Source of the DNA: a virus
Length of the DNA stretch: 25,304 nt
Direction: 5' to 3' (one strand)
Virus record (IMG/VR): IMGVR_UViG_3300042544_001510
Coordinates: 1-25,304 of that record
The notes under the pieces were generated by a model, which was given only the letters and a program-made list of their open reading frames with translations, had not been told where the DNA came from and ran no database searches. Shown piece after piece: positions 14,657 to 24,903 of this stretch. A program made the position numbers and the translations under genes. Each line of letters begins with the position of its first letter. The first letter of the stretch is position 1.

Positions 14657-15244
14657 ATGAAAACAATAAAAAATATACCCGTAGTTACTAAATCTTTAAC
14701 ATTATTATCAATTATATTTTATTTATTAAATTGTTATGATGGTAATATTAACATTGATTTTGGAATGTATCAAATATCTGATAAAAATTTTAGTTTGTAT
14801 CAAATTTTGACATTTTCGTTCTGTCATAATGTGAATCCTTTTCACCTATTAAATAATATTGCATTTTTTATTTTAGTTTCTTCTCTTTTAGAAAAGGTGT
14901 TAGGTCATAAAATGATAGGTTTAGTTTTATTAACAATACTAATAAATGTTATCGGTATAAACTTGATTGATATAAAAAATAATGTTTTGGGGCTCTCGTC
15001 TATTCTTTTTTCAACAATAGCACTTTTTATTTTGAGTAAAAATAATTTAGAGTCTACGTTGAGTTTTGGGTTAAAATTTGTTTTGTTAATATATGTTGTA
15101 GATGTATTTTTAATACTAACTTTTGGTGTTATGGATAGTAAATATACCCCTGACTTTTATAGTGCATATCTACACTTATTAGGTATTATATCAGGAACAT
15201 TATTTTTCTTATTCTATAAAATAAAAAAACTCATCCTTGGATGA
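14657..15244 (+). CDS. Rhomboid-family intramembrane serine protease, short form
   Basis: 195 residues with about six hydrophobic segments. Rhomboid features: QILTFSFCH..PFHLLNNIAF with His57, His63 and Asn67 on the second helix; putative nucleophile Ser114 in GLSS (usual GxSG); putative base His173 in YLHLLGIISG on the last helix. Such enzymes cut transmembrane helices within the membrane. The second rhomboid at 16231 shares the FG-x-Y-x-I-x(2,3)-NF-x-LY-x-ILTF layout, so the two are paralogues. This copy lacks the long loop before the active serine and has Ser in place of the last Gly of GxSG, which may alter activity. Its stop codon lies inside a bidirectional terminator shared with the convergent gene at 15272. 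Confidence 0.83.
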   Translation: MKTIKNIPVVTKSLTLLSIIFYLLNCYDGNINIDFGMYQISDKNFSLYQILTFSFCHNVNPFHLLNNIAFFILVSSLLEKVLGHKMIGLVLLTILINVIGINLIDIKNNVLGLSSILFSTIALFILSKNNLESTLSFGLKFVLLIYVVDVFLILTFGVMDSKYTPDFYSAYLHLLGIISGTLFFLFYKIKKLILG

Positions 15245-15271: not shown

Positions 15272-15673
15272 TTAGTATCTTCGTGATCCTCCACCACCAC
15301 CAGAACCAAATGTATTTGATAATGACTTTCTCATGTGTCCAGCATAACTATAATTAAAACAGTCAGACCCACCTATACTTTTAACGTAATCGTTTATTTG
15401 ACCGTATTCTTCATCAATATCACTCATTTCACTATTAAAATACTCACACCAACCTTTACCTGTTTTACCTTGGATTCTTTTAGAAAACTCAACCAAATCA
15501 TTTCTGTTTTTACATTTTCTTATTGCTGTTAATGCTCCCGCCTCATCATCGTCAAATGTACCTGACAATGCTGCAACAAACTCATCAGCCGCCGAGGTAC
15601 CAACACCCTCACTTAATACTCGCCTTACAATTCTTGTAAGATCTGATTCTGTTAATCTAACAATTCTTTTCAT
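15272..15673 (-). CDS. Leader-bearing small protein A (candidate internal head protein)
   Basis: 133 residues. Residues 1-22 (MKRIVRLTESDLTRIVRRV plus LSE) are nearly identical to those of two neighbouring paralogues and end at LSE|G, a prohead-protease-like site; LTE|S at residue 9 is another. The body (residues about 28-95) is helical and shared: SGTFDDDEAGALTAI, EFSKRIQGKTGKGW, NSEMSDIDEEYGQI. The pattern (DDE, TGK, SEMSD) loosely recalls annexin repeats, but calcium sites are not established. The C-terminus is Gly/Ser rich. T4 internal proteins carry an N-terminal capsid-targeting sequence removed by gp21, and I infer the same here. Function after ejection unknown. Confidence 0.72.
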   Translation of the reverse strand: MKRIVRLTESDLTRIVRRVLSEGVGTSAADEFVAALSGTFDDDEAGALTAIRKCKNRNDLVEFSKRIQGKTGKGWCEYFNSEMSDIDEEYGQINDYVKSIGGSDCFNYSYAGHMRKSLSNTFGSGGGGGSRRY

Positions 15674-15696: not shown

Positions 15697-16122
15697 TTAA
15701 TACCTTGTAGTACCGTTATTTTTAAAAGTATCTCCAGTCGCTAGGTTAAATCTATACGCAAAGTTATCCGCACTTCTTTTCATACTTCCCAGAGTACTTC
15801 CTTTGTAACAGTCACTACCACCTAAACTTTTTACGTGATCGTTTATTTGACCGTATTCTTCATCAACATCGCTCATTTCACTATTTAAATACTGACACCA
15901 ACCTTTACCTGTTTTTGCTGTAATTTGTTTACTAAATTCTTGTAACGCAGTTCTATCTTTTAAAAGTTTTATATTTCTTAATGCTGCCGCCTCATCATCA
16001 TCAAACAATCCAGATAAAGATTTAATAAAACTATCAGCAACTGCCGCCCCGTTTCCTTCGTTAATTACTCTTCTTACAATTCTTGTAAGATCTGATTCAG
16101 TTAATCTAATTATTCTTTTCAT
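15697..16122 (-). CDS. Leader-bearing small protein B (paralogue of A and C)
   Basis: 141 residues, closest to protein A at 15272 (SEMSD-DEEYGQIND and TGKGWC are shared, with GGSDC shortly after). The leader ends INE|G at residue 22, the same tripeptide that ends the capsid-protein propeptide (LINE|A). Body helices follow in the same order as in A, and the C-terminus diverges (FAYRFNLATGDTFKNNGTTRY). It heads a two-gene minus-strand unit with protein A 23 bp downstream, preceded by a TATTTAT motif at 16158. Two conserved cysteines could pair after release. Role inferred as for A: packaged and processed with the head, function unknown. Confidence 0.72.
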   Translation of the reverse strand: MKRIIRLTESDLTRIVRRVINEGNGAAVADSFIKSLSGLFDDDEAAALRNIKLLKDRTALQEFSKQITAKTGKGWCQYLNSEMSDVDEEYGQINDHVKSLGGSDCYKGSTLGSMKRSADNFAYRFNLATGDTFKNNGTTRY

Positions 16123-16207: not shown

Positions 16208-16215
16208 TATATTTG
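16208..16215 (+). promoter_or_regulatory. Host-type -7 element TATATTTG before rhomboid 2
   Basis: TATATTTG with TTT at 16184-16186 as a weak -33 element, 21-bp spacer. It overlaps an in-frame TTG at 16213, showing that the true start is the ATG at 16231. Confidence 0.6.
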
Positions 16216-16230
16216 TATAATAAATATTTT

Positions 16231-16983
16231 ATGAAAAAAACTTTAAACTTTTTAAAAAACCTACCTAAGTCTGTAAAAACCATAATTTTAATTAATTTAA
16301 TTATTAATTTAATTTTTATTTGTTATTACAATATATTTGGTTTTAATTTAAATTTAACATTTGGTGCATACCCTATATGCTCAGAAAATTTTGAACTTTA
16401 CAGGATATTAACCTTCATGTTTTCACATTCTTTAAATATCGGTCACATAATCTCAAATATTGTAATTTTTATTATATTCGCATCTTCTGTTTCTAATAAG
16501 ATTGGTAATTATAAAACTTATTTACTATATATTTTTTCTGGTGTTATTTCTTTTATTATTTTTAATAACCAAAAAAACTATGAAAACAAAATGATTAAAA
16601 AAGATATGATAAGTTTGGGTATTGATGTTAAAAAAATTAATCAGTTAGAAAATGGTGTAGTTGAGTTTTCTAATTTTAAAAACATGAACGAAGATCAAAA
16701 AAAATATTTAAATAATTACCCATACACTAATTCATATTTGAGTGGTTCGTCGGGATCTGTCTTTTCATTTGTTTTGTTGTTTTTATTTTTTAATATTAAA
16801 GAAAAAAAAATGTGGATACTAAATATTTTTGTAATGTTATTATTGTTTAATACGTTTTTATCTTATATTTTTAGGGATATCACAACATCGGGAAGTACTT
16901 TTGGTCACTTAGGTGGTATTTTAGGTGGATTAATATTTTTTATTTATATTAAAATTTTAGAATTAAAAAAAGGGGCACATTAA
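16231..16983 (+). CDS. Rhomboid-family intramembrane serine protease, full catalytic set
   Basis: 250 residues from the ATG at 16231; a longer TTG start at 16213 lies in the promoter. All rhomboid hallmarks are present: RILTFMFSHSLNIGHIISNI with His66, His72 and Asn76; nucleophile Ser174 in the canonical GSSG (172-175); base His226 in FGHLGGILGG. About six membrane helices. A roughly 55-residue polar loop (111-168) precedes the active-serine helix. The gene is convergent with leader protein C and shares a bidirectional terminator with it, repeating the arrangement of rhomboid 1 with leader protein A. Rhomboids are rare in phages; substrate unknown, possibly host membrane proteins or the co-encoded small proteins. 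Confidence 0.9.
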   Translation: MKKTLNFLKNLPKSVKTIILINLIINLIFICYYNIFGFNLNLTFGAYPICSENFELYRILTFMFSHSLNIGHIISNIVIFIIFASSVSNKIGNYKTYLLYIFSGVISFIIFNNQKNYENKMIKKDMISLGIDVKKINQLENGVVEFSNFKNMNEDQKKYLNNYPYTNSYLSGSSGSVFSFVLLFLFFNIKEKKMWILNIFVMLLLFNTFLSYIFRDITTSGSTFGHLGGILGGLIFFIYIKILELKKGAH

Positions 16984-17015: not shown

Positions 17016-17441
17016 TTAATACGATATAGTACCAGCTCTACCTCCAGCCCATTTTAATATGTTATTCCAAGAATTATAACCGTCATTAAAGCTTTGACGA
17101 TCACCACAATTAGAACTAAGATTACTAATATGTGCGGTTATACCATCGTATTCTGAATCCGCAGCAGACATTTCAGAATCGATATACGCCGGTAAAGTTT
17201 TACCTGTAAGGGCTTTAATTTTGGTCATACACTCTTGTAACTCTTGACAAGTCTTAATAGTTTTTATTGCCGCTAAAGCGCCTGACTCATCATCATCCCA
17301 AAAACTACCACTTAACGCGGTGTGTAATTTTACCGCAGCATTAGCACCATTTCCTTCGTTAATCATTCCTTTTGATTCACGAATAACTCTTCTTACAATT
17401 CTAGTAAGATCAGATTCAGTTAATCTAACTATTCTTTTCAT
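17016..17441 (-). CDS. Leader-bearing small protein C (paralogue of A and B)
   Basis: 141 residues. The first 19 residues are identical to those of protein A. The leader is longer: after RRVIRE|S comes a 7-residue insertion ending MINE|G at Glu29, so two prohead-protease-like sites are present in line. The body keeps the shared helices (LSGSFWDDDESGALAAI, ALTGKTLPAYIDSEMSAADSEY) but has diverged: it lacks the GKGW and DEEYGQI motifs of A and B. The C-terminus is Gly/Trp rich (WAGGRAGTISY). It has its own TATTTAT motif 35 bp upstream and is convergent with rhomboid 2. Same inferred role as A and B. Confidence 0.72.
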   Translation of the reverse strand: MKRIVRLTESDLTRIVRRVIRESKGMINEGNGANAAVKLHTALSGSFWDDDESGALAAIKTIKTCQELQECMTKIKALTGKTLPAYIDSEMSAADSEYDGITAHISNLSSNCGDRQSFNDGYNSWNNILKWAGGRAGTISY

Positions 17442-17564: not shown

Positions 17565-17975
17565 TTATTTTAAACTCTTAATTTTATCTCTCAATTTGAT
17601 TGCATTTTCAAAATCTTGTTTTTTTACACATTCGTCTAGTTCCTTATTAAGTTTTGTAAGTTCTTCTTTATTTGACTCAAGTTTTTTAATTTTATCTCTT
17701 AACTCAACAGCCTTTTCAAAATCTTGATTCTCAACACATATATTTAATTCATATTTTAATGTGTCAATTTCATTTGTTGGTTTATTTGATTTTCTTGTTA
17801 AAAAAGTATAGGAAAATAATCCTGTGTCTGACACGTAGGATCTTTTCTCCCAATCTCCGTTTTCATCAGAAACACTCTCTATTTTTTCTTTATTTTTAAG
17901 ATGAGGTTGTTCAAAAAACATTTCATCAAATTCTTTAAATAACTTGTCAAAGTTTTTAAAATTTCTAAATAACAT
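17565..17975 (-). CDS. Tandem UVR-motif protein, candidate Clp adaptor
   Basis: 136 residues. The C-terminal half is two UVR motifs in tandem: LKYELNICVENQDFEKAVEL.. (residues 73-100) and LNKELDECVKKQDFENAIKL.. (109-136), each with the QDFE-[KN]-A-[VI]-x-LRDKIK core. UVR motifs occur in UvrB/UvrC, in ClpC middle domains and in McsA, the ClpC-linked kinase activator. The N-terminal half is Phe-rich (NFKNFDKLFKEFDEMFFE) with a small beta region (YVSDTGLFSYTFLTRK) and lacks the zinc-binding CxxC motifs of McsA. It is divergent from the ClpC-like gene, which also carries a UVR-like middle segment, suggesting a partner or adaptor. The partnership is inference. Confidence 0.75.
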   Translation of the reverse strand: MLFRNFKNFDKLFKEFDEMFFEQPHLKNKEKIESVSDENGDWEKRSYVSDTGLFSYTFLTRKSNKPTNEIDTLKYELNICVENQDFEKAVELRDKIKKLESNKEELTKLNKELDECVKKQDFENAIKLRDKIKSLK

Positions 17976-18151: not shown

Positions 18152-20188
18152 ATGATAGAATCATTTGATGACTCAGAAAAATCAAAAAATAAAACTAACG
18201 ACGCTAAATCAAAAACACCTGTATTAGATAATTTTTCAAGAGACTTAATTAAGTTGGCTGAAGAAGGAAAATTAGATCCTGTTGTTGGTAGAGAAAATGA
18301 AATACATAGAATTGCACAAATTCTTTCAAGAAGAAAGAAAAACAACCCAATTATATTAGGAGAACCAGGTTGTGGTAAGACGGCAATTGTTGAAGGTTTA
18401 GCAAAGAAAATATTTGAGGGTGATTGTCCTCAAAACTTATCAGGTAAAAGAATTGTTTCATTAGATATGACATCTGTAGTTGCTGGAACAAAATATAGAG
18501 GTCAGTTTGAAGAAAGAATGAAAGTAATAATGGAAGAGTTATATGCCAATCCTGATATCATTGTTTTTATAGATGAAATTCATACAATGATTGGTGCTGG
18601 TAATTCTTCAGGTTCTATGGATGCATCTAATATCTTTAAACCGGCACTTTCAAGAGGAGAATTACAGTGTATCGGAGCAACTACATTAGAAGAGTATAGA
18701 AAGAATATTGAAAAGGATGGTGCTTTAGAAAGAAGATTTCAAAAGGTAATGGTTGACCCATCAACAAAAGAAGAAACATTACAAATTTTAACTAACGTTA
18801 AAGATAGATATGAAGACCATCATAAAGTAACATATAGTGATGATATATTAAAACTTTGTGTTGAATTAGCGGATCGTTATATTACAGATAGAGAATTTCC
18901 TGATAAGGCGTTTGATATTATTGATGAGGTTGGTGCAAGATCCCAAGTTGAAATTAAACTACCTGAGATTATTGAAGATTTAAAACGTCAAGCACAAGAA
19001 ATAAAAGAAGAAAAAGTAAGAGTTATCAATAGTCAAAGATACGAGGAAGCTGCTAACTTGAGAGACAAGGAAAGAAAAATTTTAAATGATTTAGAAAGAG
19101 AAAAATCTGAGTTTGAAAAAAATAGAAATTTATTCAAAAGAGAAGTAACTGATGATATTGTTTATGATGTGGTTTCTCTAATGACAAAAATACCAATTTC
19201 TAAAATATCAACTGATGAGACTGAACAATTAAAAACATTAAAAGAAACCTTATCTAAAAAAGTTATTGGTCAAGAAGACGCCGTTGCAAAAATATCAAGA
19301 GCAATACAAAGAAATAAGGTAGGATTAAATGACCCTAAAAAACCAATATTTAGTGGGTTACTTATCGGTAATTCGGGTGTTGGTAAAACTGAGTTGGCAA
19401 AACAATTGGCAAAACATATGTTCAATACCGAAGACGCGCTTATTAGGTTAGATATGAGTGAATTTTCAGATAAAATAGCAACATCAAAACTTACAGGAAC
19501 ATCACCAGGTTATGTTGGTTATGAAGACGGATCACCATTTTTAAATAAAATTAAAAACAAACCTTATTCTGTTATTTTATTAGATGAGATTGAAAAGGCT
19601 CACCCTGAAATTTTTAACGTATTTTTACAAATGTTAGATGAAGGATTTTTAACTGACGGACACGGAAGAAAAATTAATTTTAAAAACTGTATTATTTTGA
19701 TGACATCAAATATCGGAACAAAAATTGTTCAGGATTTTGGTACAGGGGTTGGATTTTCAACAGGAACAAAAATTGATAAAAGAGAAGAAGAAATAAAATC
19801 AGTTTTAGAAAAAGAATTATTTAAAAAGTTTGCTCCTGAATTTATAAATCGTTTTGATGAGATTATTTATTTTAAAGACCTTAGTGAAACTGATTTATTA
19901 AAAATAGTTGATTTGGAACTTGAAAAGGTATATAAAAGAATTGAAAGTATTGAGTTTGATTTGGAAGTAGAGGAGAGTTTGAAAAAACATATTATCTCTG
20001 TGGGTACCGATACGAGGTTTGGAGCAAGAATACTAAAAAGGACAATTCAAAAATGGGTGGATGATTCGGTAACTGAAAAGATATTATCGGATAACCCAGA
20101 GAAGGGATCTAAATTTATCTTATCATATAATGAGACAGATAAAAAAACTGAGGTTAAAGTAAAAAAACCAACAAAAAGAAAAAAATAA
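18152..20188 (+). CDS. ClpC-like AAA+ unfoldase lacking the N-domain
   Basis: 678 residues against about 810-850 for ClpC; the N-terminal Clp_N repeat domain is absent and the protein starts just before the first ATPase module (LDNFSRDLIKLAEEGKLDPV). Module 1: Walker A GEPGCGKT (70-77), Walker B VFIDEIH (138-144). A short middle region holds a UVR-like motif, SQRYEEAANLRDKE (294-307), typical of ClpC rather than ClpB. Module 2: Walker A GNSGVGKT (406-413), Walker B ILLDEIEKAHPE (from 475), then the ClpP-docking tripeptide VGF (533-535) placed as in ClpC. So it should unfold substrates and deliver them to host ClpP, with substrate choice changed by loss of the N-domain. No clpP is in the window. 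C-terminus is Lys rich. Confidence 0.92.
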   Translation: MIESFDDSEKSKNKTNDAKSKTPVLDNFSRDLIKLAEEGKLDPVVGRENEIHRIAQILSRRKKNNPIILGEPGCGKTAIVEGLAKKIFEGDCPQNLSGKRIVSLDMTSVVAGTKYRGQFEERMKVIMEELYANPDIIVFIDEIHTMIGAGNSSGSMDASNIFKPALSRGELQCIGATTLEEYRKNIEKDGALERRFQKVMVDPSTKEETLQILTNVKDRYEDHHKVTYSDDILKLCVELADRYITDREFPDKAFDIIDEVGARSQVEIKLPEIIEDLKRQAQEIKEEKVRVINSQRYEEAANLRDKERKILNDLEREKSEFEKNRNLFKREVTDDIVYDVVSLMTKIPISKISTDETEQLKTLKETLSKKVIGQEDAVAKISRAIQRNKVGLNDPKKPIFSGLLIGNSGVGKTELAKQLAKHMFNTEDALIRLDMSEFSDKIATSKLTGTSPGYVGYEDGSPFLNKIKNKPYSVILLDEIEKAHPEIFNVFLQMLDEGFLTDGHGRKINFKNCIILMTSNIGTKIVQDFGTGVGFSTGTKIDKREEEIKSVLEKELFKKFAPEFINRFDEIIYFKDLSETDLLKIVDLELEKVYKRIESIEFDLEVEESLKKHIISVGTDTRFGARILKRTIQKWVDDSVTEKILSDNPEKGSKFILSYNETDKKTEVKVKKPTKRKK

Positions 20189-21814: not shown

Positions 21815-22855
21815 ATGAACCTAAACAAATTCAAAGAGTTACTATCGGTCCCTTCTAAAACATATCAAGAAGAAGATATGGTAGAATATCTTTGTAATGA
21901 ACTTGACACATTTCCAGGCGTCTCCTACTACCGAGATGATATGATGAATATATATGCAACTAAAGGCAAATTAAACGAAGGCGAATATTACCCAATGTTT
22001 ATTGCCCACACGGACACCGTTCATCATAAGGTAGATAAAATCATAGTTAAAGAAGAAAACCTCATCAGACCAAATACATTTGGAAAAAAGTTTGATGAGG
22101 TTAAAGTCCCATGTTTAAAAGCATACACCGAAGATGGTAACCCAACCGGTATTGGTGGTGATGACAAATGTGGTATTTTTATTTGTTTAGAGTTATTAAA
22201 GACTTTAGATAAAGTAAAAATTGGTCTTTTTGTTTCAGAAGAAACAGGTTGTCACGGATCATCAAAATGTGATGAAAACTTCTTACAAGATGTTGGTTAT
22301 ATTACACAATACGATGCGCCAGGAAATCATTTAATCTCCGAGATTTGCTCGGGAGTTCGTTTATTTGAACGTGATAGTGAATTTTTTATTAAAACATTAG
22401 GTGTTATTGAAAATGCGTTTGGAAATGAAATGCTTGTTCAATCACACCCTTATACAGACATATCTCAATTAAAAAAGAAAATAGATGTTTGTTGTATTAA
22501 TATGTCTTGTGGGTATTACAACATGCACTCATCACAAGAGTTCGTATCAATTGAAGATGTAAGATGTGCTATTGAAGCAGGAAAAAATATGGTTAAAGAA
22601 TTAGGTTTGAAAAAATATAAGTATGAATATAAACCAATTTTATATACACCACAAACTGTTATGAACTCGTTATTACAATTTAAAGATGAAGAAGAAGATT
22701 ATCCTGTTCATCAGTTAGAAAGTATTGATGTTATTGAAGAAAAAGATGGTATTACAATATCAGATATTTTTGACGGAAATAATCTTTTTATAAATGATGA
22801 TGATTTGGTTTACTTATATGAAATATTAAAGGAACGTCTTATTTCTAAGTATTGA
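21815..22855 (+). CDS. M20-family metallopeptidase, PepT-like
   Basis: 346 residues with the full two-zinc set of the M20/M28 clan in order: IAHTDTV (His65, Asp67), GIGGDDKCG (bridging Asp117), SEETG (catalytic Glu142 and ligand Glu143), a ligand Asp167 in QYDAPG, and a final His238 in YYNMHSSQEF. The MHS-x-x-E end is characteristic of peptidase T-like tripeptidases. The dimerisation lid domain between Asp167 and His238 looks short. It has no signal peptide, so acts in the cytoplasm, where it could finish peptides released by Clp proteases. Its 3' end overlaps the convergent 394-aa gene by 30 bp. Family call high; link to proteolysis of host proteins is inference. Confidence 0.88.
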   Translation: MNLNKFKELLSVPSKTYQEEDMVEYLCNELDTFPGVSYYRDDMMNIYATKGKLNEGEYYPMFIAHTDTVHHKVDKIIVKEENLIRPNTFGKKFDEVKVPCLKAYTEDGNPTGIGGDDKCGIFICLELLKTLDKVKIGLFVSEETGCHGSSKCDENFLQDVGYITQYDAPGNHLISEICSGVRLFERDSEFFIKTLGVIENAFGNEMLVQSHPYTDISQLKKKIDVCCINMSCGYYNMHSSQEFVSIEDVRCAIEAGKNMVKELGLKKYKYEYKPILYTPQTVMNSLLQFKDEEEDYPVHQLESIDVIEEKDGITISDIFDGNNLFINDDDLVYLYEILKERLISKY

Positions 22856-24010
22856 AAATTTATCAAGGTGTTCAAGCATATCAAATAACTTTTCATTATA
22901 AATCATATTAATTAAACTATCAATATCAGTTTTTCCTGCTTTAGATTGCCATTTAAATGGTTCTTTAATTTTATATGTGATTAAACTAGTTTCCGGTTCA
23001 ATATTATCAATTCTTATTTCGTATTTTTTATCTTTTGTTTTAATCCAAGTATTAACGCCACCAAGTTGAGATACTTTATCTAAAACTTCTAAATATTTTT
23101 CATCATAATCTTCAAGGTTATTTTGAATGTCTTCTAATTTTTTTTCTAACACTCTTTCAACACCTCTACTCCAAGTGTCTTCAAATTTTTGAGTATCCCA
23201 AAATTCATATTGCATTTCATAATACACTGGTAAATGTTTAATACTGTCTTTTCTAATTGCATCAAATAATAAATCTAAAAATTTATCTTCGTCAGTACCA
23301 AAACGAGCGTATAACATCATACAAGATCCCCAATCCATTTCATATTTCCAAAAACAATATTTTTGACTATACCTTTCGACACCAACATTTCTTAAACAAT
23401 CGCAATACGTGTCTCCAATTCCTTTTGGTACTTCACTTGATACCGCTTCGACATTTGCGTCTGTATACACCTCTGTTATTTCATCACCAATATTTATTGT
23501 ATCTAAAAAATCTCTTATTTCAATATTTAAAATTCCGTCAAGAGGAGTACCTTCTTCTAACATTTTTGATAGTTTCATATATAATCTTGGTGAAATTGTT
23601 TTTGATATATCTCTAATTAATTCTAAATGATTTTTTCTTAATCTATCGGTAACATACCCTTCTTTCCAATCTTCACTATCTCTATCATAAAATTCTTCAT
23701 ACCAAGACCATCTACCATTATACATCGCATCGTAATTTCTAGCCTCCCATTCACCATCAGTATTATCTTCACCATATTCATCAGGAAAAAAGAATTTTAA
23801 ATACTCTTCTAACCCATCACTAAAAGTAAAAACTATACCATCACGAGTAACTTCAATAATATCGTCAAAACTTTTACCATCAGATGTTTCAAAAGTAACT
23901 CTATATGGACTAATTCTTTTTTTTGCTAAATGCATGATGTTTTTATAATCAGACCATTCGTCTTTTTCTTCCTCATCATCGTTTTCAAAAATAAATTTTT
24001 TCTTTAACAT
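22826..24010 (-). CDS. Large protein of unknown function
   Basis: 394 residues from an ATG at 24010 (MLKKKFIFENDDEEE); a longer frame reaches only a TTG at 24037, upstream of the TATTTAT motif, and is not preferred. Acidic and Trp/Tyr rich, with folded-looking segments: a beta region (YRVTFETSDGKSFDD, GIVFTFSDGLEEYLKFFF), a Trp/Asp/Tyr-rich stretch (YNGRWSWYEEFYDRDSEDW), a central Cys group (TYCDCLRNVG.. YCFW.. GSCMMLYARF) and a C-terminal helical part. No signal peptide, transmembrane segment or known catalytic motif. Its 3' end overlaps the peptidase gene. Not recognised. The late-type motif suggests a virion or late function. Confidence 0.7.
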   Translation of the reverse strand: MLKKKFIFENDDEEEKDEWSDYKNIMHLAKKRISPYRVTFETSDGKSFDDIIEVTRDGIVFTFSDGLEEYLKFFFPDEYGEDNTDGEWEARNYDAMYNGRWSWYEEFYDRDSEDWKEGYVTDRLRKNHLELIRDISKTISPRLYMKLSKMLEEGTPLDGILNIEIRDFLDTINIGDEITEVYTDANVEAVSSEVPKGIGDTYCDCLRNVGVERYSQKYCFWKYEMDWGSCMMLYARFGTDEDKFLDLLFDAIRKDSIKHLPVYYEMQYEFWDTQKFEDTWSRGVERVLEKKLEDIQNNLEDYDEKYLEVLDKVSQLGGVNTWIKTKDKKYEIRIDNIEPETSLITYKIKEPFKWQSKAGKTDIDSLINMIYNEKLFDMLEHLDKFSILRNKTFL

Positions 24011-24016
24011 ATTTAT

Positions 24017-24023
24017 ATAAATA
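24017..24023 (-). promoter_or_regulatory. TATTTAT motif before the 394-aa gene
   Basis: Coding strand AATATATTTATATAAATATG; ends 7 bp before the ATG at 24010, so the leader would be very short. It lies back to back with the tmRNA promoter. Confidence 0.35.
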
Positions 24024-24025
24024 TA

Positions 24026-24056
24026 TTGGATAATCAAAACAAATGTATTATCTTTG
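24026..24056 (+). promoter_or_regulatory. Host-type promoter of the tmRNA gene
   Basis: TTG at 24026-24028, 20-bp spacer, TATCTTTG at 24049-24056, the best Bacteroidota-type promoter in the window. It lies 35 bp before the mature 5' end, leaving a short 5' extension for RNase P removal. Confidence 0.72.
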
Positions 24057-24091: not shown

Positions 24092-24500
24092 GGGCCTACC
24101 TTGGAATTGACGGGCATTGGTTGAATAAAAGAAGCATGTCGGGACTGAATTAATCTCGTTAAAAACTGATTCACACTACAAATGGCAATGTGCTAAACAA
24201 CCTTGAGACTTTGGGTCTAATCTCAACTCAAGAAGTAACTGTAGCTTAATAAGTTTACGGATACGCGAGCCGGTTCACATACGCTCAGGAACAGAAGTGA
24301 CTAAGGTGGATTACCATTAAACCCGAAATTGAATGGTCTATTGGTTGTTAATTTACGATAGTGAAGAACAAATTAACCTTGTTTTTGGTCAAGACAAAAA
24401 TCAAATATTTTGGGGTATTAGAAAATGCCAACCTAAACATGTAGTCGTCTTTTAAACAAGATGAGCCGGACGAGGGAGTCGGAGCCCTCTAGGTCCACCA
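24092..24500 (+). ncRNA. ssrA: tmRNA (trans-translation RNA)
   Basis: 409 nt. The tRNA-like ends pair: GGGCCTA (24092-24098) with TAGGTCC (24490-24496), then A and an encoded CCA. The 5' region has the tmRNA-typical TTGGAATTGACGGG. A PK1-type pseudoknot is visible: CGGGA (24140-24144) with TCTCG (24054+100 to 24158) and its loop TGAAT (24146-24150) with ATTCA (24169-24173). The 3' part has the Bacteroidota-like TAAACATGTAG and GGACGAGGG. The tag frame most likely resumes at GGC 24184, 10 nt after PK1, and runs 21 codons (GNVLNNLE to STQEVTVA) to TAA TAA at 24247-24252. The tag is long and ends TVA, not ALAA. The T-loop is atypical (8 nt). The RNA frees stalled ribosomes and tags the product. 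Identity high, resume codon moderate. Confidence 0.93.
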
Positions 24501-24501
24501 A

Positions 24502-24903
24502 TTAAAGGGAGAAAAAATCATTCACAAATTTCTCCCTTTTTTCTTTTAATTCTTCAGTATATTTACCATTTCTTGGCGTCACAGATTTATAAGTACTCAA
24601 CACCAATTTTATTTTTTCTTTCTTTTTATAATGTCTTGAATTTAATTTTTCAGAAACTTTTAACGCGGCGTCGTATCGGTAAACTAAATTATAACAATCC
24701 GAGTGATTTTCTTTTTTTGATGTCCGTTTAGAAATAACACCTTTGACATTAATTTCAGATAATATAAAATTACGTACAGACTCAAGTAAAACTAAATCTA
24801 TGTTAGTAAAACCGACATGTGTTGTTTTTTCTTTATTTTTAAGACCGCTTAAGGTTATATGACCATCCGCATCAAAAAACCCACTAATATATTCCCAGTT
24901 CAT
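24502..24903 (-). CDS. Free-standing LAGLIDADG homing endonuclease-like protein
   Basis: 133 residues with one LAGLIDADG motif near the N-terminus: YISGFFDADGHITL (residues 5-18), the acidic Asp13 in the expected place. Then a beta-hairpin-like HVGFTNIDLVLLESVRNFIL, a linker KGVISKRTSKKENHSDCYNL with the usual basic/polar DNA-contact composition, and a helical Lys-rich C-terminus. Single-motif enzymes of this size act as homodimers. It is not inside an intron. Its 3' end abuts the tmRNA gene (2 bp after CCA), and its last codons form the shared terminator. It may cut and spread the tmRNA locus, or be a resident of it. Nuclease activity is inferred from the motif. Confidence 0.82.
   Translation of the reverse strand: MNWEYISGFFDADGHITLSGLKNKEKTTHVGFTNIDLVLLESVRNFILSEINVKGVISKRTSKKENHSDCYNLVYRYDAALKVSEKLNSRHYKKKEKIKLVLSTYKSVTPRNGKYTEELKEKREKFVNDFFSL
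24504..24542. terminator. Bidirectional terminator of tmRNA, overlapping the endonuclease gene end
   Basis: AAAGGGAGAAA (24504-24514) pairs perfectly over 11 bp with TTTCTCCCTTT (24529-24539), 14-nt loop, T6 following. It lies 3 bp past tmRNA CCA and encodes the last residues of the LAGLIDADG protein on the other strand. Confidence 0.85.

Follow-up and report, generated by a model that had tools for sequence, protein, structure and literature searches.

The window, that is, the whole stretch of 25,304 bases that was analysed, is an IMG/VR virus record with T4-like head, portal and terminase genes. It also encodes a ClpC-like unfoldase with two AAA modules, a metallopeptidase of the M42/M20 type and a tmRNA (ssrA) gene, together with a small UVR-motif protein adjoining ClpC and a conserved protein located between the peptidase and the tmRNA (Table 1). 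The last of these has no Pfam or PHROG match, and its predicted structure, of moderate confidence (pLDDT 75), gave no fold match. Three related small proteins (15272-15673, 15697-16122 and 17016-17441) with the shared N-terminus MKRI(V/I)RLTESDLTRIVRRV sit among two rhomboid-like protease genes (14657-15244 and 16213-16983).

Table 1. Features of the tmRNA locus and neighbouring genes, in window coordinates.
Feature	Position	Strand	Evidence
Small UVR-motif protein	17565..17975	-	PF02151 2e-20
ClpC-like two-AAA unfoldase, N-domain absent	18152..20188	+	phrog_4871 8e-225
M42/M20-like metallopeptidase	21815..22855	+	PF05343 25.4 bits; phrog peptidase 6e-36
Conserved protein, likely ATG 24010	22826..24037	-	conserved
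Bacteroidota-type promoter, TTG-N20-TATCTTTG (TTG 24026-24028; TATCTTTG 24049-24056)	24026..24056	+	motif in relatives
Phage tmRNA (ssrA), CCA encoded	24092..24500	+	RF00023 75.8 bits, full length
PK1 pseudoknot	24140..24173	+	helices 24140-24144/24154-24158 and 24146-24152/24167-24173
A at -4 of the resume codon	24180	+	counterpart of E. coli A86
Tag frame GNVLNNLETLGLISTQEVTVA + stop TAA; resume codon GGC 24184-24186	24184..24249	+	conserved frame, synonymous excess, A(-4)
Helix P5	24235..24264	+	24235-24243 pairs with 24256-24264; read from sequence
T-arm, non-canonical 8-nt loop AGTCGGAG (24477-24484)	24472..24489	+	sequence; T-stem covaries

Together with SmpB, tmRNA rescues stalled ribosomes and appends an encoded tag. 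A sequence-only reading of this DNA had proposed a phage tmRNA and suggested a covariance-model search, which we carried out; RF00023 matched exactly the interval 24092-24500 on the plus strand, over model positions 1-374, with a score well above the gathering cut-off of 47 bits. The acceptor stem (GGGCCUA/UAGGUCC) contains the G3-U70 alanine pair, and in an RNAalifold analysis of 12 relatives the tRNA-like domain and further helices were recovered, with two-sided changes in at least one sequence for 30 of the 50 consensus pairs. The gene is thus confirmed as a tmRNA and the original observation strengthened, chance being excluded. The sequence of PK1, whose second helix was taken from the Rfam alignment and whose first was read by eye, is strongly divergent among relatives. 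The P5 loop holds the stop codon of the tag, as in ordinary tmRNAs, and cognate pairing between the 3' end of the tag and the sequence just past the stop exceeds swapped pairing (P = 3e-6). The T-loop has eight nucleotides where the canonical loop has seven, a form, AGUC(G/A)GAG in the phage tmRNAs, that is seen in about 29 of 114 distinct relatives and across several tag types. It is probably because of this loop that ARAGORN, run on the window, did not report the tmRNA.

The tag comprises 21 codons (24184-24246) and is followed by two stop codons, TAA TAA, the first at 24247-24249. This frame, ending in TVA, had been put forward from the sequence alone, along with an alternative resume codon, GCA at 24185, which would give the three-residue tag AMC. 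In E. coli, A86 sets the tag frame (PMC2481249), and its counterpart, the A at position -4 of GGC, is present in 95 of 95 distinct relatives, as is a pyrimidine at position -5. When 41 distinct tag DNAs of 21 codons were joined in a minimum spanning tree, 112 synonymous and 91 non-synonymous changes were counted in the GGC frame, a synonymous share of 55% against 26% expected (binomial P ~5e-19, the tree edges being not fully independent); in the +1 frame the synonymous excess is much smaller, and in the +2 frame synonymous changes are fewer than expected. Stops break the +1 frame in all 41 of these DNAs and the +2 frame in 40, and the stop codon of the tag itself varies among relatives (TAA, TAG, TGA), with the tag length nearly constant. 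It is very improbable that translation resumes elsewhere, either at GCA or at a later codon, and that the long frame arises only as a side effect of RNA structure. ARAGORN does read only ATEQVTVA in one relative (L018), where it places the start too late, but in another (L488) it returns the same long frame, with the tag GNVINKLSAVGLIRAEEAVVA; moreover, the bases at -4 and -5 are invariant for GGC, the synonymous excess spans the entire GGC frame, and stops interrupt the GCA frame in each of the distinct 21-codon tag DNAs that were examined. The AMC alternative was accordingly rejected, the invariant A(-4) and decisive synonymous enrichment being found for GGC only. The resume codon GGC 24184 is secure, and its frame is under strong purifying selection.

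Relatives were obtained from 20 virus loci found through the gene neighbouring the tmRNA, which the tmRNA adjoins in 18, and from scans with DNA patterns, by which the tag class was read in at least 128 loci with at least 50 distinct tag DNAs; a later set contains at least 203 loci with the tag class, of which at least one is a chance match. More than 30 distinct tag peptides, each of 21-22 codons, fit the pattern G[ND]V[LI]x[KN][LM]xxxGL[ILV]...xA, among them GNVLDNLSVVGLIATEQVTVA, GNVLNKMETLGLLRGSEVTVA, GNVLNKMATIGLIREDAAVVA, GNVLNKMALLGLVKQDELVEVA and GDVLSKMETLGLVRESEVTVA. The 21-22-codon frame was found in every related phage tmRNA read, with the exception of one internal deletion and of L348, in which the tmRNA is present with an altered stop and the in-frame read is ...VTVAY. 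The proposed frame has therefore held on both points on which it might have failed, the position of the resume codon and conservation in related phages. In 31 distinct 21-mers, G1, V3, G11, L12 and A21 are invariant and L4, K/N6, L/M7 and I/L/V13 are nearly so; the search filter had fixed the first five positions, but reads made earlier with looser criteria agree. An open read without a filter for Ala gave Ala ends only, apart from the deleted form. Most tags have Val at the penultimate position; a few relatives end in VAA, and VLA also occurs. The deleted form (L008:5722-5934, on the same contig as L200) is a 213-nt tmRNA scoring 93.9 bits with RF00023, with the tag cut to GNVLDNLSVVGLN, and is either a mini-tmRNA or an assembly artefact.

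When a profile of the tag was run against 14 phage records, only the tmRNA itself was found, besides one extra match at chance level, so that the tag is not copied from a phage protein, an origin that we considered and rejected. The same profile gave nothing significant against the PDB, and a tblastn search of 50,697 deposited phage records with the 21-residue tag, a weak test given the short query, gave no match. In our view the long tag represents a new tag class within an already known kind of RNA, and it may have a private reader.

The motif TTG-N19/20-TAnnTTTG, the promoter type of Bacteroidota, lies upstream of the tmRNA in 83 of 92 relatives, compared with 2.3% of random windows, so that the phage host very probably belongs to this phylum. 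Tags could be read in 35 of 39 tmRNAs from the host phylum, and all 35 end in [LMY]AA and are typically of 9-10 codons, which bears out the earlier remark that the tag is long and unlike the Bacteroidota tags of about nine codons. The phage tag has the C-terminal Ala of a Bacteroidota-type degron, but not its 9-10 codons ending in (Y)A[LM]AA. The phage tag pattern was found in 0 of 395 genomes of the phylum; a genome-wide scan with a DNA pattern gave 56 scattered pattern matches. The tag is the phage's own, distinct from host tags, and the clade consists of large T4-like Bacteroidota phages with their own tmRNA and a conserved tag.

The ClpC of the window aligns over residues 11-668 to residues 149-805 of S. 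aureus ClpC, and the N-domain is therefore missing. In the clade alignment the D1 and D2 AAA modules conserve their Walker motifs and pore loops, and the Pfam matches are AAA_2, AAA_lid_9 and ClpB_D2-small. A ClpP-docking loop, GVGF, is present at residues 532-535, and this [VI]GF loop of the D2 region (GVGF/GIGF) is kept among the homologues listed. In some relatives (L367, L369-L371, L375, L381 and L383) ClpC has an insert of about 500 bases (match span 2496-2504 against about 2004 bases), possibly an intron or an intein. Each of the 25 tag-bearing records that were tested encodes an unfoldase of the ClpC/ClpB-type Hsp100 class. ClpP was found in 6 of these 25, many of which are fragments, so that either host ClpP is needed or the records are incomplete. 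SmpB was found in one (L491, G023:84624-85514), where it adjoins the tmRNA in the opposite orientation.

The peptidase motifs HTD, GGDDK and EETG occur in 87 of 87 homologues, which were selected on the first two, and in all 144 loci that have both ClpC and the tag (the same contigs being partly repeated) the metallopeptidase lies between the two, with ClpC and the tag on the same strand. A LAGLIDADG homing-endonuclease-like gene (24502-24903) ends one base past the tmRNA CCA in the window; of the 144 loci, only 2 showed a homologue. Nine of 12 distant relatives have a homologue of the UVR protein near ClpC, and we speculate that this protein may be an McsA-like adaptor. Several relatives have GOLLD RNA (RF02032; records L022, L038, L043, L045 and L094, and L484 and L485) no more than a few kb from the tmRNA, and in two huge-phage genomes it lies near a ClpC homologue.

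The sequence-only interpretation is supported in part. It had suggested that tagged products might be spared, or routed elsewhere, for instance to the phage ClpC. Concerning this routing, the constant presence of the unfoldase and its [VI]GF loop speak in favour, and two further results weigh against. Firstly, in 20-kb blocks from 12 distant members the region from portal and terminase through ClpC and peptidase to tmRNA is syntenic, with the peptidase strand varying; the linkage and co-occurrence of ClpC and tmRNA thus largely reflect shared descent, and since the whole block, terminase included, is syntenic, linkage alone is no proof of a functional link. For the same reasons we rejected a ClpC-peptidase-tmRNA operon as proof. 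Secondly, no coevolution of tag and ClpC beyond background was seen: distances between tags follow those between ClpCs no more closely than those between the peptidases (partial rank correlations 0.11 for ClpC, after allowing for the peptidase, and 0.25 for the peptidase). ClpCs that are 99% identical accompany two tag types, both of which fit the same motif and share every conserved position, which is compatible with a common reader. Among a few control phage tmRNAs with other tags, two are in records without a ClpC-type match (L024, AEKNFSLAA; L063, AESQFAMAA) and one has such a match elsewhere in its record (L087, GETLAIAA). The ClpC loci L326 and L009/L352, apparently without a tmRNA, are cut by contig ends, as is probably L324; in L321 the tmRNA is apparently absent. 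The huge phages LR756502, LR745206 and LR756508 have no tag or tmRNA near ClpC, and in LR756508 an RF00023 match lies elsewhere, away from ClpC.

The tmRNA gene, its reading frame and its conservation under purifying selection are direct observations; beyond them, we infer a route to ClpC. We give about an even chance to a working phage tmRNA with a phage-specific degron, most likely read by the phage ClpC together with ClpP from host or phage. The phage tmRNA, with SmpB mostly from the host, would free stalled ribosomes and add to unfinished proteins a C-terminal tag of 21-22 residues that is specific to the phage. This tag would be a degron for the N-domain-less unfoldase, which may use its [VI]GF loop to dock on ClpP of either host or phage, and the neighbouring metallopeptidase would possibly trim the peptides as a final step of degradation. 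Within the tag, the recognition element may be the body with the conserved pattern G[ND]V[LI]x[KN][LM]xxxGL[ILV]; an acidic or polar linker follows, and then a hydrophobic ending with terminal Ala that would serve pore engagement. In its stricter form, a private disposal route in which the phage ClpC reads the degron directly, independently of host adaptors, and feeds both ClpP and the phage peptidase, we advance the proposal tentatively, at somewhat less than an even chance.

For E. coli ClpXP the Ala-Ala end matters most (PMC7652416). The penultimate Val of the phage tag probably weakens recognition by host ClpX, but the sequence-only expectation that host ClpX should read the tag poorly is not supported in that form. 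All tags keep the terminal Ala and some end in VAA, so that host ClpXP could still read them. It is thus conceivable, if rather unlikely, that host ClpXP (or host ClpC/ClpAP) reads the tag simply as a divergent ssrA degron, that the phage ClpC is unrelated to it, and that the phage tmRNA boosts ribosome rescue, the long body being neutral or meant for a host adaptor. The hydrophobic ending of all tags, the VAA and VLA relatives, the lack of special tag-ClpC coevolution and a linkage for which synteny accounts would all fit this explanation. However, host tags are short and end in xAA, no phage tag has drifted to YALAA, and G1, V3, G11 and L12 are invariant over the clade, which is unexpected for a neutral spacer. 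We consider it clearly improbable that the tag is no degradation signal at all, and that rescued proteins are spared by it or sent to other ends (assembly, lysis timing), the phage rescuing ribosomes while avoiding host proteolysis. Such a role would agree with the predominance of penultimate Val in place of the Ala-Ala end most important for ClpX, and with a tag length and conserved body that suggest binding to something, but the terminal Ala is invariant, the hydrophobic end is typical of degrons, the unfoldase and the peptidase are kept in all sampled members, and no tag-like sequence was found in other phage proteins of the 14 records searched.

The usual explanation of phage tmRNAs is that they supply spare ribosome rescue. 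Purifying selection over the full length of a phage-only tag suggests that the tag itself is of importance to the virus, with a reader dedicated to it. If this reader is the phage ClpC, the system would be a testable case of a viral orthogonal degradation channel, and possibly a new orthogonal degron for synthetic biology. As ARAGORN misses or misreads this class of tmRNA, the tags of phage tmRNAs are probably under-described.

The closest likeness in the RNA is to the one-piece tmRNA of Bacteroidota (tags GENNYALAA, GESNYALAA and GEYNYALAA), which has a similar fold, the GGC resume codon with A(-4), the CTAARCRTGTAG region, the G3-U70 alanine-identity pair and, in many cases, an encoded CCA. 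In contrast, the phage tag has 21-22 codons instead of 9-10, the body G[ND]V[LI]...GL and mostly an xVA rather than [LM]AA end, while the phage T-loop is unusual in about one quarter and the RF00023 scores are lower. The phage unfoldase resembles ClpC/MecB of B. subtilis and S. aureus in its two AAA rings, its VGF-type ClpP loop and a UVR-like middle region (read by eye), but is devoid of the N-domain. In ClpC this domain is the docking site of MecA/McsB-type adaptors; with it absent, substrate choice in the phage protein must work differently. Other phages likewise carry a tmRNA gene in their genome, as described for mycobacteriophages and Bacillus phage G (PMC4131195) and for methylophage Melnitz (PMC9004378). 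A conserved, phage-specific class of long tags was not found in this literature on phage tmRNAs (PMC4131195, PMC9004378), and the control tags of L024, L063 and L087 are short and end in AA.

Long tags without LAA are also known from the Mollicutes, where the tag ends in FA-type residues. In Mesoplasma florum the ssrA tag, whose length and sequence differ, has been switched to a different protease and is handled by the organism's own Lon (PMC8138137). There the system is bacterial and its reader is Lon, whereas here it is viral, with a VA end and a ClpC-like unfoldase as the proposed reader; the private route, if true, would be an independently evolved viral counterpart of the switch of tag and protease in Mollicutes.
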